From: Russula earlei
Lineage: Eukaryota; Basidiomycota; Agaricomycetes; Russulales; Russulaceae
Direction: 5' to 3'
NCBI GenBank assembly: GCA_025769875.1
Contig: JAGFNK010000299.1
Coordinates: 1 to 64,000 of the forward strand
Length of the DNA stretch: 64,000 nt
Shown here: positions 7,690-63,549 of the stretch, piece by piece
How the letters are laid out: each line of letters begins with the position of its first letter
Position numbering within the stretch: the stretch's first letter is position 1
Made by a program: the position numbers and the translations under genes
Notes under the pieces: generated by a model
The model's input: the letters and a program-made list of their open reading frames with translations, nothing else
The model's database searches: none
What the model was told of the DNA's origin: nothing

Positions 7690-8212
7690 CTTCTGCTAGC
7701 AGTTTCTTCTTCTCCTCTGTCAGAGGAGGGTGATGCTTGGTCCTTGCTGCATCAGTGGATACCAAGTCCACTTCCATAGCATTGGGGTCTCATTGGTTTC
7801 GCCTTTTCCCAGATTGTAGGGATTTCATGCAATTTTCCCTGGTGGTTAATGCTCCACCTCCAGATCCAAGATTAGCTCTCATGAGCTGGTCTCTGGCTTG
7901 TTCCTCCCTAGCAGCATTAATCCATGCTCATAGATCATTGATGGGGGGAATGTCTCTGACTGGTTGATTGTAAATTCATCATACCACCCAGGTGAGTAGT
8001 CCTGCTTTATAGGCTTTGACTGCTCCTGGCAAGTTCTGGTCCCATCCTGCTTTATTGAGCAGAACAAGGGACTTGCTGGTGTAATCATCCAGTGATGCTG
8101 CTTTAGACATTGACAACTGTTGCAGCTCCATGAAGGCATCTTCTGGCTCTGTGGTATCTTTGAATTCCACATAGAAGTTGTCCACAAACTTGGTCCAAAA
8201 GAGCATGTCAGT
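7690..8212 (-). pseudogene. Decayed gypsy gag, remainder of the remnant at 208-2348
   Basis: The minus strand aligns with element I gag from about TDMLFWTEFVD to the knuckle segment EGKC. The reading frame is broken several times. The copia element cut the knuckle; at 8212 the gag stops where the B2 LTR fragment begins and it does not resume. So the 5' end of this gypsy was lost by a rearrangement. Confidence 0.85.
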
Positions 8213-8684
8213 TGTCATGAACCATTTCCCAGAGAGGGCCCTTGAAGGACCCTTCCTTATTAGAGGAAACCCAGCCTCTATGATGCCACCCTGTTCACAC
8301 AACCAAAAGGGGTGAGTAGGTGTCCACAATATTGCACATGCATTGTCATGCAATTGATTCTAGGCACAATTGACATACAACAAGCCCTACTTAGTGGCAA
8401 CCCTTCTAGCAATAAAAGACAATAGTAGAGGCTCCTTAAAGACCCTTTAAGACGACCTCAAGTGCTTTACATTGGACACTAATGAAGATACTATAGGCCC
8501 TAGAATGCATTATTAGACTAACTCTAATAACCTTAGAACAAACTATAAGGCAATACTAAGTACCTTAAAATGGATATTAGGGTTGACTCTAATGACCCTA
8601 ATAGAACTGTATAAGGGGCCTTATAGGCAACACTATTCCACTGACAAATACCACAAGTCCCCAAATGACCAGCCCTAAACTAAC
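8213..8684 (+). repeat. LTR subfamily B2, 5' portion, truncated
   Basis: It starts TGTCATGAACCATTTCC and matches the B2 variant up to the shared CCCTAAACTAACT segment, then stops. The B2 diagnostic is the CATTGGACACTAATGAAGA region. The 3' half with the TATA box is missing, and no TSD can be seen because the right end is gone. Confidence 0.8.
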
Positions 8685-13023: not shown

Positions 13024-13889
13024 TGTTACACCATTTTCCTTTTATGGTTACTTCTTACCTTTTGCTATGGACTGTTTGCTTTTGTACGTCCCTCTACTTA
13101 CTGGCCTCATGATCTCTTACATCTTGTGATCCCTTCTTTGTTATCATGTGATCCATACATGTCCAGGTAACACTGGATTGCTGTTACTTTCCCTTTGTTT
13201 GGTTCTCTTTCCTTTTATATTTGCTTCTTAGTTTTGACTGTGCAATGCTGCACATTTACTGTGCAGCACAGTTACTTGATTCTGACTCGTTCGTGGCTTT
13301 ATTTTGATGATTCCTACTTATTATGACTCCTACTATACTAGTAGCACAGTCAAGGCACAGCTATTGCTGCGCTTCTCCTGTATATATAAAGCTCAGTGCT
13401 TTAAGACCAAAGCCCTAAGCTTGGTCTCTTGTAGAATCCAACCTTCTTTGCTCCTGATCCTCAAACAACACTACACCTCTCCATTTCATCAACTCTTCAC
13501 ACACAACACACACACACACACCATCTACCATCTACTCTACCTATCCCTTCCTTTCCTAAGAGTCTCTCTTCACTCTACTAAGAAGAGCTCTCCTCCTTAA
13601 AGACCTACCTTCCTCTTCTCTCTGCATGTTCAAGGTCTAAGACAGACTTGAACACATATAGCTAGTGGAACCAGCCCTAGTCTATCCCATTACAAACTTA
13701 CCCTAGCTTCTCAATGGACTGAGTCATACTAGGAAGGGTCTATTGGCCATAACCTGTTTAGCATAAAACACTTTGACTGCTGGAGGGATCCTTACTCTCT
13801 ACTATGGGAACCAGCCTGTTCTTCAAACCCATCTCTACTATCAAACCCATCTTAAGACTTGTGAACTGACACGGCTAGTTACTGTGACA
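13024..13889 (+). repeat. Solo LTR family C, 866 bp, TSD CTAAG
   Basis: It runs TGTTACACCATTTTCC to GTTACTGTGACA. The TSD CTAAG is at 13019-13023 and 13890-13894. A TATATATAAA box lies near 13380 and is followed by a segment with CCTAAGCTTGGTCTC about 35 nt on. A CA dinucleotide run is near 13500. The reverse copy is at 49115. Confidence 0.93.
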
Positions 13890-14695: not shown

Positions 14696-15187
14696 TGTCA
14701 CTGACTGGGGGTGGTGTCACTGACAAATTGTTTCACGCACGAGACATGCGCACTGAGTTGAGTGAGACAACGAGTTCTCACAAGAATTGGGGATCTCAGT
14801 GACAACACAGCAAAGGCCAGTGTGTACCGCAGAGAGGAAATATAGTGATTGAGTCCTTGTGTTCGAAGACTTAGAGAGATGAAAGAGTTTCTGAGACATT
14901 TGCTTGGTTTCCTGCAAGCCTACAGTTCTGAAGCTGAATCCAGTGATATTTCACAAGAGAACAAGCTTAGGGCTTGTTCTCTTCTACTGACAGGTTTATA
15001 TAGACAGATATATCCTATATCAAATGGTGGACATGAGGTAACAATGAGACGATCGGAACTGGAACACGCTGGAAGGTGGTGGTACATGCAAGGCAAATGA
15101 GTCATTAGAATGTGCAAGAATCGTGAGGCTTGTCTGGGTAGGCTTGTCCGGTTGCCGGTCCAGTCCAAGGTACCGGTACTTGTGACA
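14696..15187 (-). repeat. Element D 3' LTR, 492 bp
   Basis: It runs TGTCACTGACTGGGG to GTACTTGTGACA on the plus strand. The sense TATATAAA box is at 15002-14995. About 32 nt on, at 14970-14958, the sense strand reads CTAAGCTTGTTCT, complementary to the element's presumed primer binding site. An inverted repeat AGAGAACAAGC / GCTTGTTCTCT surrounds this start. Confidence 0.92.
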
Positions 15188-23136: not shown

Positions 23137-23213
23137 GTTGAAGAGAAATCAGTATATTGTCTGTGTGAGCATGTGGTTCGGGGTCGAAGGTTCAGAGACT
23201 AAGCTTGTTCTAA

Positions 23214-23424
23214 TGTCACCAACTGGGGGCGGTGTTCGCTGACAAATCATTTCACATGCAAGATGTGCGCACTGAGTTGAGTGAGATGATCGGAACTGGA
23301 ACATGCTGGAAGGTGGTGGTACATGCGAGGCAAATGAGTCATTAGAACACGCGAGAATCATGAGGCTTGTCCAGGTAAGCTTGTCCGGTTGCCAGTCCAG
23401 TCCGAGGTACCGGTACTTGTGACA
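23214..23424 (-). repeat. Element D 5' LTR with a 281-bp internal deletion
   Basis: Both ends match the other D LTR, but everything between the repeats GTGAGAC and ATGAGAC is gone, including the TATA box and predicted transcript start. Just inside it, 23199-23211 on the plus strand reads CTAAGCTTGTTCT, which makes the minus strand a self-complementary primer binding site. Confidence 0.88.
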
Positions 23425-25498: not shown

Positions 25499-26604
25499 AT
25501 ACTGATATTAGGGTCAACTCTAAGGACCCTAATTGTCACAAGTACCAGCTCTTCAGACCTGGATCGGCAACTGGATAAGCCTACCCAGACAGACCTCATG
25601 TTTCCTGCACATTCTCATGACTCACTATAGCCTCGCATGTACCACCACCTTCCAGCGTGTTCTAGTCTCAACCACCTCACTGTTACTTCGTGTCTACTAT
25701 TTGATATAGGACATACTGTCTATATAAACCTGTCTGTAGAAGAGGACAAGCTCTAAGCTTGTTCTCTTGTGAATATCACTGGATTCTAGCTTCGGAACTG
25801 TAGGCTTGCAGGAAATCAAGCAAACTGTCTCAGAAATACTTTCATCTTCCTAAGTCTTCAAACGTGAAGACTTATTCGCCAATTCTCCACTCCACGGTAC
25901 ATACTAGCTCTTGCTGTATTGTCACCGAGAACCCTGAATCTCATGAGAACTTATCGTCTCACTCAACTCAGTGCGCATGTCTTGCGTGTGAACCGATTTG
26001 TCAGCGACACCGCCCCCAGTTGGTGACACTAATAGAACCTTATAAGGGGCCTTATAAGGAACACCTCCTCACCATCAAATACTTCAAGTCTCAGAAAGAC
26101 CAGCCCTAAACTAATGAACAGCAAATGAATCAGATGCTTTGCACATGTACTAGGCAGTGAACATGTGGACACTAGAAGCCCTTACTCATTGTCTAGGGCC
26201 TCCTTACTCAGCAGCTTACTGAGCATGAGTGAGCATGCTCACTAAGCATTCCCCAATGTCTTACTCATCTCCTATTGTGCTTGATAACAATGTTATGACT
26301 TGTTCTCTATTTAGCAGTTCCCTTGTAGTATATAAGCACTCAATAAAGTAGTGGATAGTCTTCAGACTGTCCATTTGATTTGTGGCACTCTATTACTCAG
26401 GGTACTCCTTTGTGCCCACCCTATCTAGTACACCCTGGCCCTCTCCTTCTGTGATCATCTCTCACAACCAGTACTAGTGCCTCTCTGGTACCTGCTACTT
26501 GTTTGGACTGTGCTCTTTGCCAACTTCATTCTTGAACTCAGTTGACTCATCTCCAAGCTCCTATCTCACTCTTGAACTGGATTGTTCAACAATGAGTCCT
26601 GACA
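25499..26604 (+). repeat. Second truncated LTR B2 copy, split by a D LTR
   Basis: The pieces are 25499-25533 and 26034-26604. It lacks its 5' part and ends GAGTCCTGACA. The following GTATG (26605-26609) pairs with GCATG before 11944. It sits head-to-tail with the previous B2 copy. Confidence 0.8.
25534..26028 (+). repeat. Solo LTR of element D family, 495 bp, TSD CTAAT
   Basis: It runs TGTCACAAGTACC to AGTTGGTGACA. The TSD CTAAT is at 25529-25533 and 26029-26033. It has TATATAAACC near 25720 and the start-site motif CTAAGCTTGTTCT about 32 nt on. This copy lacks the deletion seen at 23214. Confidence 0.94.
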
Positions 26605-32496: not shown

Positions 32497-34015
32497 TGTC
32501 ATGAACCATTCTCCGGAGAGGGCCCTTGAAGGACCCTTCCTTATAGGAGGAAACCCAGCCTCTATGGTGTCACCATGTTCACACGAGCAAAAGGGGTGAG
32601 TAGATGTTAAGATCTGACAGATCTTAGTACCGACTCTTCTTGTGAAAGAGTTGCTTGATATAGTTCAAGCACTAGACTTCGAACCCTTTGATATTATCTC
32701 AGGAAGATTGTATGTAGAAAAGAGAGGGACCTCTTTCAGTTAGAGTCTGCACTATAATTTGTTTAGATTGTTTGACAAGATAATTGTCTTGTGAAAAGTG
32801 TAAGTCGAGCGTAAGGCTCGACTTCTTGGTACCACAGACTATTTATACGATATCTCGATAACTACTGATCCGATTTGTACGAAACTCGGGGTGTACATAG
32901 CTGAGAACCAGTAGTATCCAAATACAGAAAGCGCAATTCAGAGTGTTGGAAATGACTCACGCGTGAGTCATTCTTTTCTAGTATCAGTAAGCAATCAGTA
33001 AGCAATCAGTAAGCAGCTCAGTAAGCAATCAGTAAGCAATCAGTAAGCAGATCAGTAAGCAATCACTAAGCCAGATTGATAAGCGAACACATGAGTAATC
33101 ACAGACAAGTCAGCGGAAACAGATGACAGTTCGAGAATCAAGAGAATCTTAACAGTAGAGGTGTCCACAATATCACGCGCGCATTGTTGCGCGAGCGATT
33201 CTCAGCACAATCAACATACAGCAAGCCCCACTTAAAGGCAACCCTTCTAGCAACAAAAGACAGTATTAGGGCCTTCCTAAGGACCCTTTGGAACGACCCT
33301 AGGAGCTCTACTATAGGCACTAACCTAGTAGCGAAGGCCCTACAACGCGTTATCAGACCAACTCTAATAACTATAGAACGGACCATAAGGCAATACTAAG
33401 GACCTTAATAGAAGTATTAGGGTCGACTCTAGGGACCCTAATAGAACTATATAAGGGCCTTATAAGATAACACTATTCCCTAACCCAAACTACAAGTCCT
33501 CAAATGACCAGCCCTAAACTAACTAACAGGAAATGAATCAGGTGCTTGCACGTGCACTAAAATAGTAAACACGTGGACAAGGGGAACTCTTACTCATCAA
33601 GAGAAGCCTTCTTACTCAGCAGCTTACTGAGCATGACTGAGCATGCTCAGTAAGTGTACTCCGACTTCTTGCTCATCACTCTATTGTGCTTGATAACAAG
33701 GTTATGACTTGTTCCCTATTTAGCAGTTCTCTTGTAGTATATAAGCGCTCAATAAAGTAGCAGACAGTCCTCAGACTGTCCATTAGTTTACGGCACTCTC
33801 CATCCCTGGGATACTCCTCTAAAGGACTGTCCCCTTGTGACTATCCTGGCTTCTTCCCTGTGTACCTGTTCAACCTTCCCAGTAACCATACCTCTTTGGT
33901 ATTTGTTACTGCTCTGGACCCTACTTCTCGCCCACGCCATCTTGGACGTCTATCAACTCGTCTTCGAACTGACCCCTCGCTCTTGAACTGGATAGTTCAA
34001 CAGTGAGTCTTGACA
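32497..34015 (+). repeat. LTR family B split by LTR H; no matching TSD
   Basis: The pieces are 32497-32604 and 33160-34015; without H and its TSD the length is 964 bp. The left flank is GGTCC and the right flank GGTGT, not a convincing duplication, so this B copy probably joins two once-separate loci (the DUF6532-like gene and the Plavaka transposase). Confidence 0.85.
32605..33154 (-). repeat. Solo LTR H, 550 bp, TSD GTAGA
   Basis: The plus strand runs TGTTAAGATCTGAC to GAATCTTAACA. The TSD GTAGA is at 32600-32604 and 33155-33159. The sense strand (minus) has TATAAATAG near 32840. It contains the palindrome TGACTCACGCGTGAGTCA (32953-32970) and an 11-bp tandem array of AGTAAGCAATC-type units at 32988-33070. 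The second copy is at 43084. Confidence 0.93.
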
Positions 34016-42797: not shown

Positions 42798-44314
42798 TGT
42801 CAAGACTCACTGTTGAACTATCCAGTTCAAGAGCGAGGAGTAAGCTCGAAGATGAGTCAAAAGACGTCTGAGATGGTGTGGGCAAGAAGTAGAGTCCAAA
42901 GCAGTACCAAATACCAAAGAGGTATAGTTACTGGTAGTGTCAAGCAGGTATGCAGGGAAGAAGCCAGAATGGTCACAAGGGGATGGTCCTTAAAGGAGTA
43001 TCCCAGGGATAGAGAGTGCTGTAAACAAATGGACAGTCTGAAGACTGTCTGCTACTTTATTGAGCGCTTATATACTACAAGTGTGTTAAGATCGGACTGA
43101 TCTTATTACCGACTCTTTTAGTGAAAGAGTTGCTTGATTTAGTTCAAGCACTAGACTTCGAACCCTTTGATATTATCTCAGGAAGAACAGATGTAAGAGA
43201 AGAGAGGGGCCTCTTTTACTTAGAGAGTTGTCACTATAAGTTGTTTAGAGATTTGACAAGCTGATTGTTTCTTGTTACAAAGTAAGTTGAGCATAAGGCT
43301 CGACTTCTTAGTACCACAGACTATTTATATGATATCTCAACAACTACTGATCCGATTCGTATGACACTTGGGATGCACATAGCTGAGAACCAGTAGTATC
43401 CAAATACGTAAAGCGTAATTCCAGAATGTCAGAAATGACTCACGCGTGAGTCATTCTTTCCTAGTATCTGTCATCAACTTAGTAAGTAGTGAGTAAGCCA
43501 TTACTGATCAGTGAGTAAGCGGATCAGTAAGCAATCACTAAGCCAGATGAATAAGCACATATGATTAAACAGAAAGGAGTCAGCAAAGCATAGGTAAGCA
43601 GATGAGAGCGAAGAACACAAGAATCCTAACAAAGAGAACTGCTAAATAGGGAACAAGTCATAACCTTGTTATCAAGCACAATAGATGGATGAGTAAGAAG
43701 TCAGAGTACACTTACTGAGCATGCTCAGTCATGCTCAGTAAGCTGCTGAGTAAGAAGGCTTCTATTGATGAGTAAGAGCCTTTACTGTCCACGTGTTCAC
43801 TGTTTTAGTACACATGCAAAGCAGCTGATTCATTTGCTGTAGTTAGTTTAGGGCTGGTCATTTGAGGACTTGTAGTTTGGTTCAGGGAATAGAGTTATCT
43901 ATAAGGCCCCTTATATAGCTCTATTAGGGTCCTTAGAGTCGACCCTAATACTTCGATCAAGGTCCTTAGTATTGCTTTATAGTTCGTTCTATAGTTATTA
44001 GAGTTAGTCTAATAACGTGTTGTAGGGTCTTTAGTATTGTGTTAGTGCCTATTGTAGAGCACTTAGAGTCGTCCTAAAGGGTTCTTAGGGAGGCTATAAT
44101 ACTGTCCTTCATTGCTAAAAGGGTTGCCATTAAGTGGGGCTTGTTGTATGTCGATTGTGCCCAGAGTCACTTGTGCGACAATGTGCACATGATATTGTGG
44201 ACACCTCTACTCACCCCCTTTTGTTCATGTGAACAGGGTGACACCATAGAGGCTGGGTTTCCTCTCATAAGGAAGGGTCCTTCAAGGGCCCTCTCTGGGG
44301 AATGGTTCATGACA
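42798..44314 (-). repeat. Solo LTR family B split by LTR H, TSD GACAA
   Basis: The pieces are 42798-43083 and 43637-44314, 964 bp in all. The TSD GACAA is at 42793-42797 and 44315-44319. Confidence 0.93.
43084..43631 (-). repeat. Solo LTR H, 548 bp, TSD AAGTG/AAGAG
   Basis: The plus strand runs TGTTAAGATCGGAC to GAATCCTAACA. The flanks AAGTG (43079-43083) and AAGAG (43632-43636) differ at one base. The palindrome TGACTCACGCGTGAGTCA is conserved at 43436-43453. The AGTAAGC array is shorter than in the copy at 32605. Confidence 0.9.
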
Positions 44315-49114: not shown

Positions 49115-49997
49115 TGTCACGGTAACTAGCTATATCAGTTCTCAAGCCTGAAGCAAGTTGGACAATAGCAATGTGTTCAAAGAATGGGCCAATTCCTGTT
49201 GTAAAGAATAAGGATCCCTGCAGCCATCAAAGTGTTTTATGCTAAACAGGTTATGGCCAATAGACCCTTCCTAGTATGACTTGGTCTGTTGAGAAGCTAG
49301 GGTAAGTTGTAATAAGATAGACTAGGGCCTGTTCCACTAGCTATATGTGTTCAAGTCTGTCAGAGACCTTGAACATGTGTAGAGAGAGTAGAGGAAGGTA
49401 GGTCTTAAAGGAGGAGAGCTCTTCTCATTAGAGTGAAGAGAGACTCTTAGGGGAGGAAGGGATAGGTAGAGTAGATGGTAGACAGTGTGTGTGAAGAGTT
49501 GATGAAATGGAGAGGTGGATGTGGTTTGAGGATTAGGAGTGAAGTGGGGTTGCAGGCAAATATGTTGGACAAGAGTAGGTTGGATTCTACAAGAGACCAA
49601 GCTTAGGGCTTTGGTCTCAAAGCACTGAGCTTTATATATACAGGAGAAGCACAGCAATAGCTGCACTTTGACTGTGCTACTAGTATAGTAGGAGTCATAA
49701 TAAGTAGGAGTCATGAAAATGAGGCCACAAATGAGTCAGAACCAAGTAACTGTGCTGTACAGTAAGTGTGCAGCATAGTACAGTCAAAACTAAGAAGCAG
49801 ATATAAATGAAAAGAGAACCAAACAAAGGGAAAGTAACAGCAATCCAGTGTTACCTGGACACATATGGATCACATGATAACACAGAAGGGATCACAAGAC
49901 ATAAGAGATCATGAGACCAGTAAGTAAAGGGACATATGAGGGAAAGCAGTCCATAGCAAAAGGTAAGAAGTAAACATAAAAGGAAAATGTTGTAACA
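49115..49997 (-). repeat. Solo LTR family C, 883 bp, TSD GAGTC
   Basis: The plus strand runs TGTCACGGTAACTAGC to ATGTTGTAACA. The TSD GAGTC is at 49110-49114 and 49998-50002. It is the reverse-oriented sister of 13024-13889. Confidence 0.93.
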
Positions 49998-51150: not shown

Positions 51151-52095
51151 GTGGTCATCTTGTGTATGTCAACTCTTGTCTTGCTTTGCTGTGAAGCATA
51201 TATACAACTCATCAAAGCCATCTGTCCTCATTGTATTCCATATCACACATCAGCATTAAATGGGGCTGTGTGGGTTTGTGAACTACTCACTGGCCATCCA
51301 GAGCACATTTGGAATGAGCTTGGAGTACATACACATGTCTTTGACACCCTCCAGCAGACCATCCAAAACCTTGGTGTTGCCTCATCACATCATGTCCTAA
51401 TTGAAGAACAAATCGCCATCTTCCTCTATACCACTGAAGTGTATGGGGGACACTTGAGTGAGTAAGTGTGGGGCTGACTGGTCCCAAGGAAAGAGAGAGG
51501 AGAGGAGGAGGAAAGAGGAGCAAGTTAGTATGTGCATGGTTGTCTGAGGTTCTTTGTTCAGGCAGATAGATGGAAGAGTGGACAAGAGAGATTGTTTTTT
51601 TTTTTTAGTCAAGAAGGTAACTAGGGTTTTTATGTACAGGAGAAAAGTGCTAAAGGGAAGCATATAATGAAAGGAAAAGAGATGGTGAAAGGAGTTTGAG
51701 GATGAAAGGGAGTTTGAGGCCAGGCAAGGCAGTCAAGGTGGTGGTGAACAGCTTGCAATGCAATCATGTCTTGCAAGCATGTCCATGTGGTCAGTGGCAA
51801 GGGCTTGGCATTGCAGTCAAGATCTTGACAATGGATGCAAGGTGGTAGCATGGGACAAGGGGGAGTGAGATGGATGAAAGGGATGTGTCATGTCACATTC
51901 CCACATGTGATTCTGTGGCCAGTGGATCACATACCTTACACCACTGTTACAGGGCTGTCATCAATGCATGTCAGAGAGCATTTTCAGCAGTCACCCTGCA
52001 CCATTTCAAAGTATGTATCACTTGGGTTTCTTCATGCATCTCCTGACAGGCAGTTAGGTATTTTAAAAAGATTCTTGGAGCTCTCACAAGCCCCC
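51151..52095 (+). pseudogene. PIF/Harbinger-type transposase remnant, truncated by element I
   Basis: The frame near 51240-51440 reads YHTSALNGAVWVCELLTGHP, then NELGVHTHVFDTL and EEQIAIFLYTT, typical of the N-terminal part of Agaricomycete Harbinger-derived transposases. About 500 bp intervene; reading resumes at 51940 with VTGLSSMHVREHFQQSPCTI. A probable intron (GTATGT to CTGACAG, about 52012-52050) leads to LGILKRFLELSQAP, and element I begins immediately after. The DDE catalytic part is absent from the far side of element I, so it was deleted or moved. Confidence 0.78.
51438..51943. other. Insertion of about 500 bp inside the Harbinger frame
   Basis: ACCACTG occurs on both sides (about 51431-51437 and 51937-51943), and the frame resumes across the two copies. 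The inserted sequence contains a T-run near 51592-51606 and a CTAGGGTTTTTATGTACAGG segment. It could be a solo LTR or a small hAT-like element; its ends are not diagnostic. Confidence 0.5.
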
Positions 52096-52683
52096 TGTTA
52101 CCGAGTGGTTTGGGGTCCGGAAGATGCCGGAACACCTGAACTATGGACTGCACCGTTTGCATTATGCGTGCGTCAGATCTTGATCGTTTATGTTCCTTGA
52201 TATCACATTCGGAGCGCGTTGATCGTATCTTTCAGAAGATGTACTGAAGAAGCAATGAGTAGCATTGCTTCTGTCCCAGATGTTCCTGTACCGCCACGTA
52301 CGTCGATTCCTTGATTGGGGAAGCACTTAATGCTTCCAGCACCGAGATCGTTTACATAGAAGCAACCTCGCTTCTATGAGCCATGTTTTGCTTCTATAGC
52401 ACCGACTAGTACTACAGTAGTACAAACCTTATCCCTGTAAGGCTATATAAAGCCCCCAGTCGTAACAGTTGAGCCCTAAGCTCGACTTAGTTTGCCAATC
52501 CCAAACAGTTGACTCCTACCCCGTCTGCAGAGCCCCTCTCATCTTGTTGTCATACTCTAGAAGGATCTAACACTCCTTCCCCTCCACGAGTATTGCTTGC
52601 TTGACTCAAGCATATCTGCATAGGTAGGACGCGTTTATAGACGCGACCATTGATCTTATTTAAGGCACTTTGGAGCCTTAACA
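52096..52683 (+). repeat. Element I 5' LTR, 588 bp
   Basis: It runs TGTTACCGAGTGG to GAGCCTTAACA. The TATATAA box is at 52444-52450, and AAGCTCGACTTA (52478-52489), 34 nt on, is the likely transcript start. Upstream lie consecutive short hairpins with GAAGC/GCTTC arms (52249-52271, 52320-52336, 52357-52376) and GTACTACAGTAGTAC (52409-52423). Confidence 0.95.
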
Positions 52684-52695
52684 TAAGTCGAGCTT
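52684..52695 (+). other. Self-complementary primer binding site of element I
   Basis: TAAGTCGAGCTT directly after the LTR is the exact reverse complement of AAGCTCGACTTA at 52478-52489, the predicted 5' end of the transcript. This is the arrangement by which Tf1-like elements prime reverse transcription with a fragment of their own RNA. Confidence 0.75.
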
Positions 52696-52969
52696 CTATC
52701 ACAGACATCGCTGTGAAAGCGAACCAGAAATAGGCAGGAAGCCTAAAGACTAGGATCTAGTCATCATACGGTCAGCAACCTACGCTGAAGTAGTCAAGGG
52801 GGAGAATCTATACAGACCTCTCCACGACAAGAAGAAGGTGTACTACGTGACTCTCGACGAGCAGCACGGTTGGACACACGCATACTTCTGTAAAGACCCC
52901 TACTGTCATTGGCATAGACAGTGGTAAGAGGGCAGACAAGTCCCGACTCCCTAGGAAAGGCAGTGGCGA

Positions 52970-53818
52970 GTGGACAAACTGGAAATCGAAGGAGAACATA
53001 GCATACGCGTAAAGTTCAACCAGAAATCAAAGCAAGGAACCAAATTTGGTTGGTTCAAAGCTAGAGAGAGGGACGATCTACCCTCAGGAATCAAAGGAAC
53101 TGCCATCTGGTGTTGGGCAGACCAGGAAGGGCCTAACAGATACGAGGTCCGATACAAAGGAAGCTACCTTCCTTGTGAATACATCAACGACCAGTGGTAC
53201 TTTATTGATTACCACAAAGGACGTCCCTACGCAGGAGAGGACGAAGACATCGACGAATATAAGGTCTTAGGTTTAGGAACCAGGACAGATCCTTATACTA
53301 CTCATTGGGAACCCAGAAACCCAGTAGTAGACGACCCAGCTCCATTGATACAAAAGTCATCAAGTGGAGAAACAGAACAGTCGGACCCTCCGACTACAGA
53401 TCAGAAAGCAGAAGCACCAGAAGTATTGGAGCTAGCTGAAAGACTAGAGCAGACAGTACACGTCTCGCCCATTGAACCAACAATCGTTGAAGAACCAGAA
53501 GAATCAGTCGAAATGGCTACCATTGCAGCAACGCAGACAGCCACCATTGCCACCCAGACAGCAGGTGGAAGAGCAGGGCCCACCATCGTAGTAAACCCTG
53601 GAGGAGGTCCACCTGGAGCAGGAGGACCACCTGGAGGTGGAGGAGTCCCCTTCGGACCCGGAGGTCCACCAGTACCAGGAGGAGGCCCACCTGGAGGAGG
53701 CCCTCCAGCAGGGGGACCACCAGCAGCACCTCCTGTAGGACCAGGGGCGAATCTGGCACCTCAGCCGGCACCAGGCCCCCATGGGGGCAACTGGATCTCT
53801 AAAAGGAGACCCTCCTGA
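52970..53818 (+). CDS. Element I ORF1, pre-Gag protein with Gly-Pro-rich tail
   Basis: The frame opens after TAG at 52952 and runs 282 codons from GTG 52970; no ATG is near, so the true start is unclear. A separate open stretch just upstream (about 52793-52928, VVKGENLYRPLH and CHWHRQW) may be an earlier part lost to a frameshift. Residues 1-90 hold a W/Y-rich segment (AIWCWADQEGPNRYEVRYKG), 130-190 are acidic, and 200-270 are collagen-like GGPPG repeats. The last 38 nt overlap gag in another frame. Gag-associated function is likely from position only; I do not recognise a family. Confidence 0.6.
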   Translation: MDKLEIEGEHSIRVKFNQKSKQGTKFGWFKARERDDLPSGIKGTAIWCWADQEGPNRYEVRYKGSYLPCEYINDQWYFIDYHKGRPYAGEDEDIDEYKVLGLGTRTDPYTTHWEPRNPVVDDPAPLIQKSSSGETEQSDPPTTDQKAEAPEVLELAERLEQTVHVSPIEPTIVEEPEESVEMATIAATQTATIATQTAGGRAGPTIVVNPGGGPPGAGGPPGGGGVPFGPGGPPVPGGGPPGGGPPAGGPPAAPPVGPGANLAPQPAPGPHGGNWISKRRPS

Positions 53819-54863
53819 AGTCTTCAAAGGAGACAGGAAAAAGACGAAGTACTTTGTCCAGGATTTCAATCTATGGAATCTGCTCAACAGCGACAACCCG
53901 ACCATGACTATTCCAATGAAACGAGTAGCCCTAGCTCTCACCTACATCAAAGGAGAGAAAGTGCATGAATGGGTGGTCAATCAAACGAACCTGGTAGAAG
54001 CAAAAAGAAATGGGGACCCGCCGTCTCCCTATGCACCAGTGCAGCTAGATCCAACTGACATGCTCTTTTGGACCGAATTTGTGGATGACTTCTTCAGAGA
54101 ATTCAAAGACACCACAGAGCCTGAAGACGCTTTCATGGAGCTACAACAACTGTCCATGTCTAAAGCAGCATCGCTGGATGACTATACCAGCAAGTTCCTT
54201 GTTCTGCTCAGTAAAGCAGGATGGGACCAGAATTCACCAGGAGCAGTAGAAGCCTACAAGGCTGGACTAATCACCTGGCTGGTGCGACGAATCTACAATC
54301 GACCAGTCAGAGATATACCTGCCATCAATGATCTACGAGCATGGATCAATGCTGCCAGGGAAGAACAGGCCAGAGACCAGCTCATGAAAGCCAATATTGG
54401 ATCTGGAGGTGGATCGTTGACCACCAGGGAAAATCGCATGAAATCCCTACAGGTTGGGAAAAGGCGAAACCAAAGAGATCCGAATGCAATGGAAGTGGAC
54501 TCAGTATCCACTGATGCAGCAAGGACCAAGCGACGTCCTCCTCTGACAGAGGAAAAGAAGAAACTGCTAGCAGAAGGGAAATGCTTCATCTGCAAGAAAG
54601 CAGGACATATCAGTCGGAACTGTCCAGACAAGGACAGAGTCAAGAAGAAATCAAGTAACCCAAGGGACAAAGGGAAAGCTCGAGCTCTGGAAACAGAGAA
54701 GGAGGACGACTCAGGGGATAGTGGAAATGAAAGCACTGTCTCCGGGCGATCTACATCTCCTCCTCCTACCTATAACAAGAGCTCCTCCTCGGCGTCCATA
54801 AAGAAGATGTCCACCAAACAAAAGGAGGACTTGTTGGAAGAACTGATGGAACAGGGTTTTTAG
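53781..54863 (+). CDS. gag: Element I Gag with CCHC knuckle
   Basis: ATG 53781 lies in a favourable context (CCCATGG). The 360 residues include the gypsy Gag region (PEVFKGDRKKTKYFVQDF near the start, then FREFKDTTEPEDAF) and a CCHC knuckle, CFICKKAGHISRNC, around residues 270-283, followed by a Ser-rich tail. Gag forms the particle shell and binds the RNA. It ends in GGT TTT TAG, where the -1 slippery heptamer GGGTTTT leads into pol. It could be translated by reinitiation after ORF1 or by frameshifting from it. Confidence 0.88.
   Translation: MGATGSLKGDPPEVFKGDRKKTKYFVQDFNLWNLLNSDNPTMTIPMKRVALALTYIKGEKVHEWVVNQTNLVEAKRNGDPPSPYAPVQLDPTDMLFWTEFVDDFFREFKDTTEPEDAFMELQQLSMSKAASLDDYTSKFLVLLSKAGWDQNSPGAVEAYKAGLITWLVRRIYNRPVRDIPAINDLRAWINAAREEQARDQLMKANIGSGGGSLTTRENRMKSLQVGKRRNQRDPNAMEVDSVSTDAARTKRRPPLTEEKKKLLAEGKCFICKKAGHISRNCPDKDRVKKKSSNPRDKGKARALETEKEDDSGDSGNESTVSGRSTSPPPTYNKSSSSASIKKMSTKQKEDLLEELMEQGF
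54854..54863 (+). other. Predicted -1 ribosomal frameshift site GGGTTTT-TAG
   Basis: The heptamer fits X XXY YYZ, with Gag codons GGT TTT then TAG. Slipping back one base continues into the pol frame, which is open through the overlap. The same heptamer and stop are kept in the diverged remnant (plus 2062-2071). Confidence 0.7.
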
Positions 54864-56488
54864 GAACACCTAAGTCGACGGCCTGGCTTAGGAAGAATAG
54901 TGTGTTGCAAGTGTACATTAGAAGACTGAATGCTATGAATATTCCGTTCACTTTCGTCACTGCACACACAACGGCCGAGGAATCTGCTCTACTAGACAGT
55001 GGAGCAACAGAGAACTTCATCGATCACTCAGCTTGGAAAAGACTGAAGATTGGGAAACAAGAACTACATGAACCCATGGTAGTACGAAACGTCGACGGAA
55101 CCCAGAATAAGCAAGGGGAACTCACCCATTACTGCTGGCTTCGCGTCCGATACAAGGAGAAGGAGAGCTTGCAAAGGTTCTATCTCACAGATTTAGGAAC
55201 GGATCGGGTCATCCTGGGATATCCCTTCCTATATGAATTTGACCCCACCATCAACTGGAAGAAAGGACAGCTGATGGAAGGAACGGTACAGATTGAGACT
55301 GCTCGATACAAGTACCTGGATCTCTATGTCGCAAAACTCCAAAAGCGAGCAAGAGATGAAAACCGACAATTGAAGAAAGGGGAAGCCATTTACCTACAAA
55401 AGACGACTATTGCTCAGAAGTGGGCTCAGCAGTCGATTAAACCACAGGAAGGAGAGGATCCCCTTGCCAATGTTCCAAAGCAATTCCACCGCTTTGCCGA
55501 TGTCTTCTCAGAAGAGAAGTCCCAGAGGTTCCCACCACCAAGGGAACCAGACATGCAGATAGAGCTGTTACCTGACGCACCAAAGGAACTAAACTGCAAA
55601 GTGTACCCCCTTACACGAGATGAGCGAGAATACCTCAAGAAATTCCTAGCTGATGAAGTAGAGAAGCGATACATCACTCCAGGTCCATCCAGCTACACAT
55701 CTCCGGTGTTCTTCATTGGCAAGAAGGACAGCAAGGAGAAGAGGATCATTGTAGACTATCGACGACTAAATCAGTGGACTAGACGAGACAATGAACCTTT
55801 ACCACATCTGGAACAAGAGGTGGAAAGACTCCGAGGGAAAAAGGTCTTCTCCAAATTCGACATACGATGGGGATACAATAATGTGCGACTGGCAGAAGGA
55901 GATCGCTGGAAGGCAGCCTTCAAGATGCCATATGGAACCTACCTGCCCAACGTCATGTATTTTGGGCTCAAGAACGCACCAGCCTTCTTTACTAGGCTGA
56001 TGAGAAGAGACTTCGGTGACTGGCTGGACCGATGGGCAGAATACACGGTCAACTATCTGGATGACTTTGGAATTGCCACGGGGGACAGTCCTGAACAATT
56101 AGAAATCCATGAGCAATGTGTCAACGAACTACTCACGCTGATGCAGAAGAAGTCATACTTCCTGAAACCCCAGAAGTGCCAGTTCATGGTGCGAAAACTA
56201 ACCATGCTAGGATGGGACATAGACGAAGGGAAGATGAAGATTGAGGCCTCCAAAGTCCGAGGAATCACGGACTGGCCTCGGGAAATCAAGGACGTACACG
56301 AAGTGCGCAAAGTCATGGGAGTCCTCAGTTACAATAGGGCTTTCATTCGAGGATTCAGTCAGATTGCTCGACCCATTATTGCCTTGACAAAGAAAGGGGT
56401 GCCATTTGAATGGACCCAAGAATGCAAAGATGCTTTGGAACGACTTATCCAGATAGTATCTTCTGACCCTAGTCCTGCTCCATCCTGA
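54864..56488 (+). CDS. pol: Element I pol part 1: protease and reverse transcriptase
   Basis: The pol frame is open from the Gag overlap; no Met is needed if reached by frameshifting. The protease has LLDSGATENFIDH near 54985-55025. RT follows, with PSSYTSPVFFIGKKD, VDYRRLNQWTR, KFDIRWGYNN, FGLKNAPAFFTRLM and the catalytic NYLDDFG (about 56050-56070), all intact. The connection domain continues to DWPREIKDVHEVRKVMG. An extra base near 56473 throws the frame into TGA at 56486-56488; the older copy at 430-480 lacks it. So full Pol cannot be made from this copy unless the shift is bypassed. Confidence 0.92.
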
Positions 56489-57692
56489 TGAGGAGCGACC
56501 CTTTGAACTGGAAGTAGACGCGTCCAATTATGCCATTGGAGCAGTATTATTCCAGAAGGACGAACAAGGGAAGAGGAGGCCAATAGGCTACTTCTCAGCA
56601 GCCTTGAAACAAGCAGAGAAGAACTACGACATATGGGACAAAGAGTTCTTAGCCATGGTGCGAGCCTTGAAACACTGGCGACACCTACTCATGGGAGCAA
56701 AGCATAAGGTGGTGGTTTATACAGACCATGCGAACCTGTTGCATTACCGACACCCTCAGCGAATAAATGGTCGAGTGGCAAGATACATTACCTTCTTGGC
56801 AGACTTCGACTTAGAATTGAAACATCAGGCAGGGGCAAGGAATAAAGCAGATGCCCTGTCAAGGAGACCTGACCTTGACGATGGACAAGGGGATAAAGAA
56901 GAAGTGGTCGCGCTACCTGACCATCTTTTTATTCGAGTAATGCACACTACTGCATTGGAAGAACGGATAAAGAACCAACAAGGGGAAGAAAGACACCGAT
57001 TAAAGTTACTTGATTGGGTACAGAGACACCGACTGGAGAAGCGACATAACTTATGGTGGAAGAATGAAGCCTTGGTGGTTACAGGCGACGAAGGAACCCA
57101 CAGGACCTTACTGGAACAGTATCATGACAGTCCCACAGCAGGACACCCAGGAAAAGCTAAAACATTACTGGGAATGATGCGATACTACTGGTGGCCCACC
57201 ATAAGACGCTTTGTCGATCGATATGTGGAAGGATGCGCAATTTGCCAAAGTAACAAGTCAAACACTCATCCAAATCGACCTCCCTTGTATCCCATTCCAC
57301 CAGAAGAAGGGGCTACTCCCTTCTCGACTGTCAGCATGGACTTTGTGGTCAAATTGCCGAAGTCGAAAGGATATGACAGTATATTGACTGTCACTGACCA
57401 CGATTGTACTAAAGGCGTCATCTTGCTTCCTTGCAAAGAAGAAATGGACGCAGAAGAGCTAGCACAGCTCTATAAGGACAGAATATTCCCATTTGTGGGA
57501 GTACCAAGCAAGATCATATCCGATCGAGATAAACTAATAAGTTCCAAGTTCATTAGGGAACTTTGCGACCAGCTGCATATCAAACAGAATATCAGCACTG
57601 CCTACCATCCTCAGACAGATGGACAATCAGAAAGAACGAATCAGACGATGGAAACATCGCTAAGAATCTTTTGCAACCACCAACAAGACTGA
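56489..57692 (+). CDS. pol: Element I pol part 2: RNase H and integrase core (shifted frame)
   Basis: Reading continues one base over, from HPDEERPFELEVDASN to the stop at 57690-57692. RNase H motifs: LEVDASNYAIGAV, YDIWDKEFLAMV, YTDHANLLHY, NKADALSRRPD. The integrase zinc finger has YHDSPTAGHPG and GCAICQSNK. The core has VSMDFVVKLPK, KIISDRDK and GQSERTNQTME, carrying D, D and E. A single extra T near 57690 (GAC-T-GAC) ends the frame; removing it would continue into the next ORF. All catalytic residues are present. Confidence 0.92.
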
Positions 57693-57696
57693 CTGG

Positions 57697-60105
57697 GTGG
57701 ATTGGCTGCCTCTGGTGCAATACACGATGAATTCTAACGTTTCAGAGACAACCAGACAATCCCCTTTCTTCTTATGGATGGGTTTTACGCCCAAAGCACA
57801 CCAACCAAATCGGGAAAGCAAGATACCAAGAATAGACAATTGGAAAGTCCGGATCCAGGAAGCGAGATCACAGGCACAAGAAGCGATGAAGATCGCTTCC
57901 CTAATGTGGAAGCGAAGAAGTAGTTTCCAACCTTATCAGAAAGGAGAAAGGGTATGGCTCGACAGCACCAACCTAAAAACGACACATCCTACAGTGAAAC
58001 TACGCCCAAAACGATATGGGCCCTTTGAAATCACGGAGGTGATTAGCCCGGTGACATACAGATTGGATCTCCCTAGCCGCTGGAGGATCCATAACGCGTT
58101 TCATGCCTCCTTATTGACACCTTACAAGGAAACCGAGGAGCATGGGGCCAACTACACCAATCCAGAAGCAGAATTGGTGGAAGGAGAAGAGGAATATGAA
58201 GTAGCAACGATTTTAGGTTCAAGACGAACTGGAAGGAGGAAACAGCTGGAGTATCAAGTCCGGTGGGAAGGGTACTCCGAAGCCCATGACTCTTGGGAGC
58301 CAGTAGAGAACATCAAAGCGTCTAGACTAATAGAGGAATATCACAGAAAGAACCCCACGGCCATACGGGTTATAAAAGTCCAGCGAAAGATGCCCTCTAC
58401 TTCCTCATCCCCATATCGTCGCTCACAAATGTCCCAAACTCCCACTAATGAAATCGTTCCCCAGTCCGACCTCTCTGGTGTAGAGGGGCCACTTGAAATC
58501 ACCACTCCCGATGCTTCCCTTCTTGCCTTCTTCCAAGGAATGGATGAACATAACACTGGAGAAGGAGAAGCAGATATGCGTCCTCTCGAATTTGGACCCC
58601 CTGCTGACCAAGTCGACGTTCAGCCTGGGGATTGGGATGTGACGTCCCCCACCAGCACTCTTGCCCAGGATGCCCACCCTGGAGAGCCTTGGGTACGATG
58701 GGACGCTGACAGACACCACACAGGGATTGACATCCCTGATGGCATGACTTGGGGCAACAAACCGGCCAGGTATGTGGCCTATGACGTTGCCTTGGGAGAG
58801 CCGAGAGTGAGGGGGAAGAATGGAGAAGGCCATGCAGACTATGGCGAGATCCTCCAGGCCACCCCTTGCTATAACCTCTATAACTATGGCCAAGACGAAC
58901 ATGACTTAGACTGCTTCGACACAGAGAGGCAGTTCGAAGGGCGCTGGAGACAGACCCTCTACCTGCTAGGCGACTATGGGCTGCAGGCAGAACTCTACCG
59001 CTTGGACCATCTCTACACCCTACAAGAGACACTGGAAGCTAACTATAAGGTGCTTGAAGAAGAGGAGAAGCAGCTGCGCTACAAGCTCAGCAAGTACCTA
59101 GCTGAGAAGCGAGGAGTAGAGAGAGACAGGGCTGAAGCCAAGGAGAGAATGGCGGCAGCCAAAGTACGCTCACGTTGTTGGGAGTTCATTGAAGCAGGCT
59201 GTAGCCAGGGAGAAACCCCTCCAGGTGTCTGGGCTGAAGAACTCCTCACCAACTATCGGGCTGGGCAGCCCACTCCCCCTCTACCCGTCTTCGTCCCTCA
59301 GCTGCCTTTGGCAGACATCGCTCAGGGGTATGCTACCTCTGACCCAGAACCAGTACCAGCCAGCCCCACACCTACGACGGTGCAAGGGTATTCAGAAGAG
59401 GAGATGAACGTCCTCCAAACCATGTCCGGTATGCGCCTTCGAGGAGGAGCAGGATCGGAAGCGTCACCAAACCCTTCCCCCCAAAGCTCTATCTATTACC
59501 ATTCCTATAGCAGCAGTGGGGAAGCGTCTACTGCAACGGCTGACTTCATTCCGGAGCCTCAGCAGCTGAACATGATAGAAGGGAGGAGGAAAAGGAACCG
59601 ATGCAAGTATTGTGGCGAGGTAGGACATTTTAACAAGTACTGTCCACTGCCCCACCAGTATTGCCACGACCAACTGGCAGCAGACGCTGCCTCACATTGC
59701 CTAGTACCTCCCTATCATCGTTCCTATACACCAATCAGATCATGCCCTTTCCACCGAGGATGGGAACAGGCACACCCGAGCAGGAAGAGGAAGTCCGACC
59801 AGGAGAGGGAGGACACTGCTAACCCACGCATTTTGCAGGTAGCGAAAGGAGAAGGGTCCAGGACCTTTCAAGAACCTTTCACTACGACTCCTCTTCGCTC
59901 AGACACACCTCCAGTCCGGAGGTTACCTAGGGACTCTGACAGACTCCCACAGATCATGTCTCCTGCAGCCACTGCTGAGGAGTCAGAGGCGATAGTGGCC
60001 TCAGCATTGGCTGCCTATGAGGCAGCAGAAGAAGGCCGATACACCTTCACCACATCACCTCCTCCCCTTGATGATGATGGCGTTGACCCCACCACTCGAT
60101 TTTAG
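57697..60105 (+). CDS. pol: Element I pol part 3: integrase C-terminus, chromodomain and long zinc-knuckle extension
   Basis: The third frame (about 802 codons) begins with the integrase C-terminal region (LPLVQYTMNSNVSETTRQSP, then RVWLDSTNLKT, KLRPKRYGPFEI). A chromodomain spans residues 166-218 (LEYQVRWEGYSEAHDSWEP). Then comes an unusual extension of about 580 residues: acidic linker, a Glu/Lys/Arg-rich predicted coiled coil (residues 429-493) and a CCHC knuckle CKYCGEVGHFNKYC at residues 636-649, with a Ser/Pro tail. Most chromoviral Pol proteins end near the chromodomain. The extension is open throughout, so it appears maintained. Its role is unknown; nucleic-acid binding and self-association are inferences. 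Confidence 0.85.
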   Translation: MDWLPLVQYTMNSNVSETTRQSPFFLWMGFTPKAHQPNRESKIPRIDNWKVRIQEARSQAQEAMKIASLMWKRRSSFQPYQKGERVWLDSTNLKTTHPTVKLRPKRYGPFEITEVISPVTYRLDLPSRWRIHNAFHASLLTPYKETEEHGANYTNPEAELVEGEEEYEVATILGSRRTGRRKQLEYQVRWEGYSEAHDSWEPVENIKASRLIEEYHRKNPTAIRVIKVQRKMPSTSSSPYRRSQMSQTPTNEIVPQSDLSGVEGPLEITTPDASLLAFFQGMDEHNTGEGEADMRPLEFGPPADQVDVQPGDWDVTSPTSTLAQDAHPGEPWVRWDADRHHTGIDIPDGMTWGNKPARYVAYDVALGEPRVRGKNGEGHADYGEILQATPCYNLYNYGQDEHDLDCFDTERQFEGRWRQTLYLLGDYGLQAELYRLDHLYTLQETLEANYKVLEEEEKQLRYKLSKYLAEKRGVERDRAEAKERMAAAKVRSRCWEFIEAGCSQGETPPGVWAEELLTNYRAGQPTPPLPVFVPQLPLADIAQGYATSDPEPVPASPTPTTVQGYSEEEMNVLQTMSGMRLRGGAGSEASPNPSPQSSIYYHSYSSSGEASTATADFIPEPQQLNMIEGRRKRNRCKYCGEVGHFNKYCPLPHQYCHDQLAADAASHCLVPPYHRSYTPIRSCPFHRGWEQAHPSRKRKSDQEREDTANPRILQVAKGEGSRTFQEPFTTTPLRSDTPPVRRLPRDSDRLPQIMSPAATAEESEAIVASALAAYEAAEEGRYTFTTSPPPLDDDGVDPTTRF

Positions 60106-60146
60106 AATCGTTGGTGTGTGGGACCACCAATCTGAAGGAGGGGTAA

Positions 60147-60734
60147 TGTTACCGAGTGGTTTGGGGTCCGGAAGATGCCGGAACACCTGAACTATGGACT
60201 GCACCGTTTGCATTATGCGTGCGTCAGATCTTGATCGTTTATGTTCCTTGATATCACATTCGGAGCGCGTTGATCGTATCTTTCAGAAGATGTACTGAAG
60301 AAGCAATGAGTAGCATTGCTTCTGTCCCAGATGTTCCTGTACCGCCACGTACGTCGATTCCTTGATTGGGGAAGCACTTAATGCTTCCAGCACCGAGATC
60401 GTTTACATAGAAGCAACCTCGCTTCTATGAGCCATGTTTTGCTTCTATAGCACCGACTAGTACTACAGTAGTACAAACCTTATCCCTGTAAGGCTATATA
60501 AAGCCCCCAGTCGTAACAGTTGAGCCCTAAGCTCGACTTAGTTTGCCAATCCCAAACAGTTGACTCCTACCCCGTCTGCAGAGCCCCTCTCATCTTGTTG
60601 TCATACTCTAGAAGGATCTAACACTCCTTCCCCTCCACGAGTATTGCTTGCTTGACTCAAGCATATCTGCATTGGTAGGACGCGTTTATAGACGCGACCA
60701 TTGATCTTATTTAAGGCACTTTGGAGCCTTAACA
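60147..60734 (+). repeat. Element I 3' LTR, 588 bp
   Basis: Visibly identical to the 5' LTR but for one base. The polypurine tract GAAGGAGGGG (60134-60143) precedes it. It ends AACA and is followed by AACAG, not by the CCCCC that precedes the 5' LTR. Confidence 0.95.
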
Positions 60735-63549
60735 AACAGGACACGTTGTGGTATATCTAGATGATATACTAATCCTTGCAAACACCATTCATGACTTAGA
60801 TCAATGGACACATAAAGTCCTTAAACTCCTACAGGAACATGACTTATACCTTAAGCCAGAAAAATGCGCTTTCTGTCAAACATCCATCAGCTATCTAGGC
60901 ATACACATTTCCCAAGGACACATATCAATGGACTCGGATAAGCTAGTGGGCATAACACAGTGGCCAACTCCTACTAATATCACCAAAGTTCAAGCCTTCT
61001 TAGGCTTTTGTAACTTCTACAGATGGTTTATACACCAGTATTCCCATCTGGCCCGACCATTGTTCAATTTAACTAAGAAGGATCACCCATTTCATTGGGG
61101 ACCCAAGGAAGAAAAAGCCTTCCGCACCCTCATTGAAGCATTTATGAAAGCACCAGTCTTAGCACTACCAGACCACTCCTGACCGTTCCGCTTGATCTGT
61201 GATGCAAGCGACTTTGCAGTCAGCTCTATCCTAGAACAACCAGATGAACTAAACCGGTACCACCCAGTTGCATACTTTTCCAAGTCACTGGATCCTGCTC
61301 AGAGGAACTATATGATCTATGACAAAGAACCTCTAGCCATAGTATCCTCCCTTTGGCACTTCCGGCATTACTTAGAAGGAGCTAAACACCCAGTAGAATT
61401 GTGGACAGACCACAACAACCTCACATACTTCATGATGAAACAAAAGCTCACCTGACGACAAGCTCGATGGGCTTTGCTACTCAGCGCATTCAATTTCCAC
61501 ATTTTACACCACCCCGGGACCCAAAACAAGGCAGATGGTCTGTCCAGGTGGCCAGACTATAAAGAGGGGATGCATGAAAATGATGCAAAGGTCCTGCTGG
61601 ACCAACAATTTTTTAAAATTAGAGCAACCCGATCATCCACGATGGAACCTATAGGAGACTTTGAACTAAGAAAACAATTATGTTCCAGCAAAGACTATGA
61701 CCCGGAGGTCAAAGCAGCCTTAGAAACCATCCTAAAGAATGGACCCCATCGCCTTACAAAAGGCTTGCAGGACTGAAACTTAGAAGATGGACTGATTCTT
61801 TTCAAAGGAAAAGTCTAGGTCCCAAGGTCAGATACACTAAGGCATACGGTCCTCAAAGTACACCACGATTCCTTAGCCACTGGCCACCTGGGTCAATGGA
61901 AGACCTACAAACTAATAAGCTGTAACTATTGGTGGCCAGGAATGCTAACATTTGTCAAGAGCTATGTGGATGGTTGTGCTATATGTCAAAGCACAAAGAA
62001 CCGCCCAACAATGACCATACCCCTAGTCCCTATCACCCCAGTGGGCAAGATATGGGACAGCGTCACCATGGACTTCATTGTCGACCTACCCCTCTCTCAA
62101 GGGTATGACAGCCTACTAGTAGTTGTGGACCACTTCAGTAAAGCTGCCATCATCTCCCCATGTCATAAGGACCATCACCGCAGAAGATACTGCCTCCCTA
62201 ATCATGAACAATGTGTGGAGATGAGTAGGGTTGCCAACCCAAATCATCTCTGACCAAAGTCCCCAGTTTGCAGCTAAAGTTACCCAAGAACTATGGAGAA
62301 AACTAAACGTTAAGTCTTCCCTTAGCACAGCATACCACCCCCAGTCAGATGGGGAAACAGAAAAAGTCAACCAAGAACTGGAACAGTATCTGAGAATCTT
62401 CTGTAACCACCAACAGGATAATTGGGCCAAACTAGTCCCATTCATGGAGTTTTCCCATAATGCATGCACCCATAGCACGACCCACAAAGCCCCCTTGTTG
62501 CGCAGCATAGAGCACAGCTAACAGGCCAAGCAACCCACCTTAGAGGTTGTGCTAATGCTCAAGTGATATTGGGGTGTTGAGCAATGAGTATACTTGTCTA
62601 CAAGTATGGTATTTATACCTCTATGACCCAGGGCTGTTCCTAAGTCCAAAAGAGGTGACTACAGGTGTCCACTATATCGCGCATTAAGTGACGCATGATG
62701 TGGAAACGTTCTAGACGCAGCATAAGGCTGCATCTTGTGATAGATAGCGTAGTATGCGTAACCCTATTGCCATAAGCGCATATACTAACGTTCTGTCTAA
62801 CATGTAACATCTATGAGCGGATCTTGAACCTTGTATGAAGGTCTACGCCTTCTTTGATCCATTTGGGTTCCGGTTCAAACACCCCTTTGAAATATGGTAT
62901 GGCTTCAATCCAACATTTGCCCCCCCTCTTAGTTTCAACACCAAGTTCCCTTCCGTCTTGGAACGCCTGCAACAACTAGATTTACTTAGAGAGGAGGTCG
63001 CAGCCTCCCTTTGGTATGCCACCGCACTGATGGGACAGCCCAGCTCCCATTTCCCCAAGTACCAGTTTAAGACAGGAGACTTAGTCTGGCTGGAAGCCAC
63101 TAATCTGAAGACAACACACCCAAAGCCAAGATAGCCCCTCGACGATATGGACCCTTTAAGGTTGTCACCTCATACCCAGTCAACGTATGCCTAGAACTAC
63201 CAAAGACATGGAGGATGCACCCAGTCTTCCATAACTCCCTGATCAAACCATACAAAGATACCACTGCCCACGGTCCTAACTTCAAACAACCCCCCCCTAC
63301 TATAGTGGAAGGGGAGGGAACAATATGAAGTGGACAAAGTCCTCACGTCCAGACATTCCCCTAACCATAGAGGCATTCAATACCTAATACAATGGAAAGG
63401 GTACCCCGCAGCAGAGAAACACTTGGGAGCCCGCATCCAACCTAGTCAAAGCCAAAGAGGCTGTAAAGGCCTTTCATTGGCAGTACCCAACAATGCCCAA
63501 GCCTAATAACATAGTTGCAGGAGCAACTAGGTCATAAAGAGGGGATGAA
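60735..63549 (+). pseudogene. pol: Ty3/gypsy element J (family B), 5'-truncated pol
   Basis: Reading starts at the RT catalytic region VVYLDDILIL, so Gag, protease and the first half of RT are missing. It continues with YLKPEKCAFC, WPTPTNITKVQAFLGFCNFY, RNase H (LICDASDFAVSS, WTDHNNLTYF, NKADGLSRW), integrase (GCAICQSTKN, VTMDFIVDLPL, ISDQSPQF, DGETEKVNQELE) and a frameshifted chromodomain (63330-63480). TGA stops after DHS, KLT and LQD interrupt it; the first two fit CGA to TGA. An LTR (62496-62881) splits the integrase end. Polypurine AAAGAGGGGATGAA leads straight into a B LTR at 63550, which assigns all B LTRs here to this gypsy family. Confidence 0.92.
62496..62881. repeat. Solo LTR L, 386 bp, TSD CCCCT, within element J integrase
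   Basis: It runs TGTTGCGCAGCATAG to CCGGTTCAAACA. The TSD CCCCT is at 62491-62495 and 62882-62886. Removing it restores HKAPFEIWYGF. A TATTTATACC word lies near 62608. The orientation is uncertain. Confidence 0.88.

Follow-up and report, generated by a model that had tools for sequence, protein, structure and literature searches.

How does an LTR retrotransposon that offers no obvious site for a tRNA start its reverse transcription? The question is raised by element I, which spans 52096-60734 of the window, that is, of the whole 64,000-nucleotide stretch of Russula earlei DNA analysed here. The original prediction was that this element primes DNA synthesis with the first bases of its own RNA, as Tf1 does. 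Its sequence marks element I as a young LTR retrotransposon with a chromodomain, which makes it a chromovirus. All its features lie on the forward strand. Both LTRs were delimited by blastn and as a direct repeat; the 5' LTR (TGTTACC...CCTTAACA, 52096-52683) and the 3' LTR (60147-60734) each measure 588 bp and differ by one mismatch over that length. A TATATAA box is read at 52444-52450. The internal region holds a gag-like frame with a zinc knuckle (53739-54863; PF00098 above cut-off, PF03732 just below its own), a protease and reverse transcriptase frame (54776-56488; PF00078, E 3.5e-27, with protease PF13975 below cut-off), a frame with RNase H, integrase zinc-binding and integrase core domains (56457-57692; PF17917, PF17921 and PF00665), and a frame with the integrase C-terminus, an SH3_Tf2-1 domain, the chromodomain and a long tail (57664-60105; PF24626, E 2.3e-17; PF00385, E 5.1e-13). 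The Pfam order over 54776-60105 is thus PR-RT-RH-IN with a chromodomain ending the integrase, the protease being the match below cut-off, and the RNase H domain is present (PF17917). The pol frames of this copy are broken near 56470 and 57680; longer open SH3-domain frames occur at other loci which, by their position, are apparently copies of element I. A polypurine tract, GAAGGAGGGG (60134-60143), is followed by TAA and the 3' LTR.

The tail at the end of pol, roughly 580 residues long, carries a second zinc-knuckle-like motif, CKYCGEVGHFNKYC (59602-59643), about 430 residues past the chromodomain. This placement is unusual, and Pfam reported nothing for the motif at 1e-3. Element I is also without a target-site duplication (..AAGCCCCC at 52071-52095 versus AACAGGAC.. 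at 60735-60760), for which recombination or a lost flank may be the cause. The element belongs to a populous family. In the 66.6-Mb genome, the pattern of the LTR/PBS junction occurs 256 times with at most three mismatches, versus 3 times for the reversed control, and the best 40 of 958 candidate copies are 98-100% identical over 596-601 bases; these two results mark the family as recent and abundant. The gene content of the genome suggests a filamentous fungus, probably a basidiomycete: it holds 112 matches to the fungal kinase family PF17667, though many of these are pieces of a single gene and 4 of 14 bacterial and archaeal controls gave matches as well, and two hydrophobin matches, for which every control stayed silent.

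The segment TAAGTCGAGCTT (52684-52695), the putative primer-binding site (PBS), follows the 5' LTR with no base in between. As originally claimed, it is the exact 12-nt reverse complement of AAGCTCGACTTA (52478-52489), the predicted transcript start and self-primer with which R would begin. The position ascribed to the latter, 34 nt after TATATAA, is right if one counts from the first T of the box to 52478. Pairing goes no further than the LTR/PBS junction, where 52490 G and 52683 A are unpairable. The longest complement that the LTR offers to the first 15 leader nucleotides is 12 nt, a length reached in none of 2000 dinucleotide shuffles of the LTR (maximum 11, twice), and the position of the complement relative to the TATA box and to the LTR end adds to this result. 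The start of R is repeated in the 3' LTR at 60529-60540.

Priming by any tRNA 3' end requires TGG in the PBS, as the complement of CCA-3'. No TGG is found in the first 60 nt past the element I LTR. Twenty tRNA genes were compared with the site out of 63 listed hits, which were themselves the best candidates; the 20 mostly have different scores, and the lowest-scoring hits were left out. Within this set no 3'-end match exceeds 2 nt, and the longest internal match, at 6 nt, is shorter than the average of 7.5 obtained with shuffled PBS regions. A better-fitting tRNA, which would have spoken against the original prediction, was sought among 20 of the 63 listed hits and did not appear. It could be argued that a tRNA or a tRNA fragment is the primer all the same, with the complementarity between R and the PBS serving another role. 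tRNA priming is usual among LTR elements, the comparison covers 20 of 63 listed hits, and half-tRNA primers are predicted for some plant elements in the available part of one account (PMC6317226). The absent TGG and, among the 20 hits compared, the 2-nt 3' match and the 6-nt internal match nonetheless led us to reject both tRNA and half-tRNA priming for element I, and we regard a primer of this kind as very improbable.

Self-priming by element I can be set against other elements of the same genome. Four further families, F1, B, F3 and F5, were located through a reverse transcriptase or a Tf2-type integrase domain, and it is by these domains, not by a chromodomain, that they were assigned. Each of these families with Tf2-type integrase has its own, different primer/PBS pair of 11-12 bp. 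F1 (C58; LTR 882 bp; target duplication TAATG) pairs an R start TAAGCTTGGTCT with a PBS AGACCAAGCTTA, and B (C362; LTR 491 bp; GATTC) pairs AAGCTTGTTCT with AGAACAAGCTT. F3 (C64; LTR 564 bp) pairs ACGCTCGACTTA with TAAGTTGAGCGT, including one G.U; the contig breaks off within its 3' LTR, whose end was set by comparison with solo LTRs. F5 (C146; LTR 297 bp; target duplication GGCAT) pairs AAGTCAAATCT with AGATTTGACTT. For F1, B and F3 the LTRs were fixed beforehand by comparing ends and the complement was sought afterwards; it was present in all three. F5 is not an unbiased case: a scan of 15 stretches for such a layout brought it to light, its LTRs were confirmed later, and in 3 of the 15 the looser scan behind it also gave opposite-strand hits. 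The PBS adjoins the LTR directly in I and F3 and lies 2 nt away in F1, B and F5, and a TATA hexamer stands 32-35 nt upstream of the R start in all five families. On our reading, a 2-nt offset would let each of the five primers end in ...CT, facing AG. Between I and F3, the primer/PBS pair shows a compensatory change from A-T to C-G. Among copies of F1, B, F3 and F5 that hold both segments, eight of ten are perfectly paired (F1 4/4, B 2/2, F5 1/1, F3 1/3); the three F3 copies are L132, which is perfect, one with a G.U, and L120 with two mismatches. Taken at the level of sequence, this retention of complementarity through sequence change supports Tf1-like self-priming. The families I, F1 and B are, however, not wholly independent, because they have AGCCCTAAGCT in common around the predicted start.

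Some observations complete this survey. Directly 5' of the 3' LTR, element I has its purine tract plus TAA (60134-60149), versus TGA in F1, B and F5, the three families in which, unlike in element I, a target duplication was seen. F5 has a 6-nt match to a tRNA 3' end 36 nt into its leader stretch, away from its PBS. The LTR of group A elements (e.g. C118 and C7) could not be located. Of 11 returned stretches, one represents a new family (L125) and eight are pieces of F1, F3 or the F3 flank; two others, L117 and L123, matched nothing, and their neighbours L136 and L137 were equally without a match. Viral contigs, when scanned, yielded no confirmed independent element from outside the genome. 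The L040, L042 and L043 groups are other abundant reverse transcriptase families, one of which has dozens of copies with an identical reverse transcriptase score and frames of up to 1275 aa.

Covariation between the two segments was proposed as a check on self-priming, and its outcome is mixed. Across families it is favourable, the five having each a matching R/PBS pair. Within family I it is marginal. Fifty-one rows of element I copies were aligned, a non-random set that includes 30 loci chosen by PBS pattern, some of them overlapping; after eight incomplete rows had been dropped, the remaining 43 comprise 32 with the canonical pair, 4 with a change in R only and 7 with two-sided changes, all seven from the diverged set. 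In a genome-wide table, 47 copies are changed on both sides at the CpG; 31 of them (12 + 19) are compensated, two G.U pairs are found in 9 and two A.C pairs in 7. The excess of compensation gives a one-sided Fisher p of 0.036, or 0.074 without two near-identical copies. Because the CpG of TCGA can decay on either strand, the covariation is weak at best; we do not take it as proof, most of the changes being of the kind that such decay could produce. The same resemblance to CpG decay, together with the AGCCCTAAGCT common to I, F1 and B, could be read as a sign that the complementarity is functionless and reflects chance or the common descent of one sequence. This reading has to contend with the shuffles of the element I LTR, none of which in 2000 reached the complement, and with the outer halves of the primers, which differ among families while each PBS differs in step. 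We consider it extremely improbable.

If the two segments pair in the RNA, they would close the leader on itself. The 5' leader RNA (52478-52720) is predicted to fold into a domain that the primer/PBS helix closes, with a folding energy of -75.4 kcal/mol (z -5.4; none of 200 shuffles equally stable). All 12 primer/PBS pairs are in the minimum-energy fold of element I. The mean predicted probability of the pairs in this helix is 0.94 for I, 0.98 for F1, 0.92 for B and 0.97 for F3. For F5 it is 0.21, and the minimum-energy fold prefers another structure with 0 of the 11 pairs. Tf1/sushi elements have in common, in the available text of PMC10085805, a three-duplex "pretzel" fold, a trait that does not strictly define them. 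Its central duplex is predicted in element I; the side duplexes are not above chance there (133 and 137 of 300 shuffles as stable). None of ten tests stands out, the number of equally stable shuffles being never below 34 of 300, and the search was a simple duplex scan able to miss side duplexes. In family B one contiguous 9-bp match to a pretzel side was seen, with 61 of 300 shuffles as stable. A leader this stable might also be a structural or regulatory hairpin, acting in dimerisation, packaging or translation control, that is never cut and yields no primer; the persistence of G.U and some A.C variants in family I would suit such a role. Such a role gives no reason, however, for the complement to end exactly at the LTR border or 2 nt away from it in each of the five families, just where a primer has to lie, and the uncut hairpin is in our view very improbable.

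It is thus very probable that element I reverse-transcribes by Tf1-like self-priming, as originally proposed; the exact complement, the predicted helix, the absent tRNA match, the five families and the integrase with its chromodomain and SH3_Tf2-1 domain all point in this direction. Against it stand the F5 fold that lacks the helix, the mismatches of F3 copy L120, the 7 of 47 copies with two A.C pairs and the pretzel sides at chance. By analogy with Tf1, transcription would begin at 52478 or within a base or two of it. The first 10-12 nt or so of the RNA would then fold back on the PBS next to the 5' LTR, and the RNase H of the element would cut behind the primer stretch, again as in Tf1. Following the same model, the freed 3' end of the primer would be extended into U5.

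The start of R has a second complement, this time upstream. An arm in U3, AGTTGAGC (52467-52474), can pair with it over 8 bp, one of them G.U, in a predicted hairpin with 52480-52487 whose loop is 52475-52479. The 3' copy of this hairpin of arm and R start lies at 60518-60538, and here the arm is inside the predicted RNA. In I the arm and R start read AGTTGAGC / GCTCGACT (8 bp including the G.U), in B AAGAGAACAAGC / GCTTGTTCTCTT (12 bp) and in F3 AAGTCGAGC / GCTCGACTT (9 bp); in F1 there are 8 bp plus one unpaired A, and in F5 merely 3 bp. The arm is therefore clear in I, B and F3, bulged in F1 and nearly absent in F5. At the predicted start, the best local hairpin of every family has a loop of 5 nt: CCTAA three times, CTTAC and CCCAA. 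Compared with shuffled neighbourhoods, the hairpin has p values of 0.0032 (I), 0.0002 (B), 0.0004 (F3), 0.18 (F1, with the bulge disallowed) and 0.37 (F5), which combine to 3e-7 over five families of which I, F1 and B are not fully independent given AGCCCTAAGCT. Shuffles with a fold energy as low numbered, of 500, 2 for I, 0 for B, 1 for F3, 25 for F1 and 129 for F5. For I, 12 of the 523 other LTR positions carry an equally good hairpin; the counts are 0 of 426 for B, 5 of 499 for F3, 129 of 817 for F1 and 89 of 232 for F5. The 12 positions make the evidence for the arm moderate for element I alone. Placed in the context of the RNA 3' end, R start and U3 are predicted to pair with a mean probability of 0.69 in I, 0.53 in F1, 0.82 in B, 0.75 in F3 and 0.11 in F5.

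In an RNA that begins at R, the arm is missing from the 5' end but present ahead of the 3' R, so that it would hide the 3' copy of the primer only. Our tentative suggestion, doubtful as it stands, is that the arm is a switch which masks the duplicate primer at the RNA 3' end and leaves the 5' copy free for the PBS, arm, R start and PBS being a three-part set that co-evolves. We would give about an even chance to the alternative that the arm is an initiator DNA palindrome, hence a promoter element, or that it serves circularisation between the 3' end and the 5' R start for strand transfer. For this alternative speak the position of the arm astride the predicted start, the recurrence of the 5-nt loop in the five families, and the AGCCCTAAGCT common to I, F1 and B, perhaps an initiator in its own right. 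The family-specific outer pairs of the arm nevertheless exceed what an initiator motif needs, and the G.U tolerated in element I suits RNA better than DNA, neither point being decisive. The U3 arm may itself be new: a complement of the self-primer within U3 finds no mention in the available portions of the literature surveyed, a survey of work other than the original Tf1 papers. The U3 of fission-yeast Tosmo elements is said to contain a highly diverse segment that ends 9 bp before the U3-R junction (PMC10085805, available in part); this gap leaves room for a conserved arm, without showing one.

Related sequences are scattered through the rest of the window. A diverged relative of element I (about 88%) lies on the minus strand at 208-8214, split between 2347 and 7682 and missing its 5' end. 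LTR pieces of F1, B and F3 are found at 13327-13889, 49115-49694, 25695-26028, 14696-15028, 23164-23289, 32604-32902 and 43084-43384. Six of these seven contain the R region; the R start is unchanged in five of the six, and R start and U3 arm are both unchanged in four. The piece at 23164-23289 (minus strand) retains a B-type PBS. Near-matches with the sequence TAAGTGGGGCTT number seven in the window and lie inside a dispersed repeat.

If these readings are right, an uncommon, experimentally known way of starting reverse transcription is also used by a recently active, high-copy element and by four further families of one genome. The five different primer/PBS pairs would form a natural set for studying what RNase H needs in order to cut an RNA-RNA duplex. 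Should the U3 arm mask the 3' primer copy, it would also answer how a self-primed RNA avoids priming at the wrong end.

The primer of Ty3 is a tRNA. Ty3 has the solved reverse transcriptase nearest in sequence to that of element I (PDB 4ol8, 7q5b), and element I is unlike it in having no tRNA match. The premise of the original prediction, that Tf1 and related fungal chromoviruses self-prime, agrees with the published accounts as far as their available text goes (PMC7175516; PMC10085805), and self-priming is described there and in the accessible part of a third account as common in Tf1/sushi chromoviruses (PMC6317226; PMC10085805; PMC7175516). In the basidiomycete Tcn1 self-priming was proposed, and Tcn2-5 of the same genome possibly prime in novel ways (PMC7175516, in the part available); it was likewise proposed for most plant elements of the Tcn1 clade (PMC6317226, same proviso), and was not found for SM-Tcn1, according to the portion of PMC2864245 at hand. 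Element I resembles Tcn1 of Cryptococcus neoformans in being an LTR element of a basidiomycete for which Tf1/sushi-like self-priming is proposed (PMC7175516, available in part). It also resembles the fission-yeast elements Tj1 (S. japonicus), Tosmo1-3 and Tcry1, where self-priming was deduced from the same type of complement; pretzel folds are predicted for these elements, and the available text makes no mention of a U3 arm (PMC4600332; PMC10085805).

The closest parallel is with Tf1 of S. pombe, the founding self-priming LTR element. The Tf1 primer consists of the first 11 bases of the RNA, with the RNase H cut between bases 11 and 12, as given in the available part of PMC7175516. Element I differs from Tf1 in that its pretzel side duplexes are at chance, its frames are broken in places, and its start and cut are predicted ones. 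The two elements are alike in chromovirus gene order and, on the Tf1 side as far as the available accounts describe it, in having beside the 5' LTR a PBS complementary to the start of the RNA, over 11 nt in Tf1 and a predicted 12 nt here. The SH3_Tf2-1 match is only a hint that element I belongs to the Tf1/sushi clade, and the relatives listed from the database bear no element names. What the comparison of sequences supports is that element I fits the known mechanism of Tf1, the likeness being one of mechanism rather than of clade placement.
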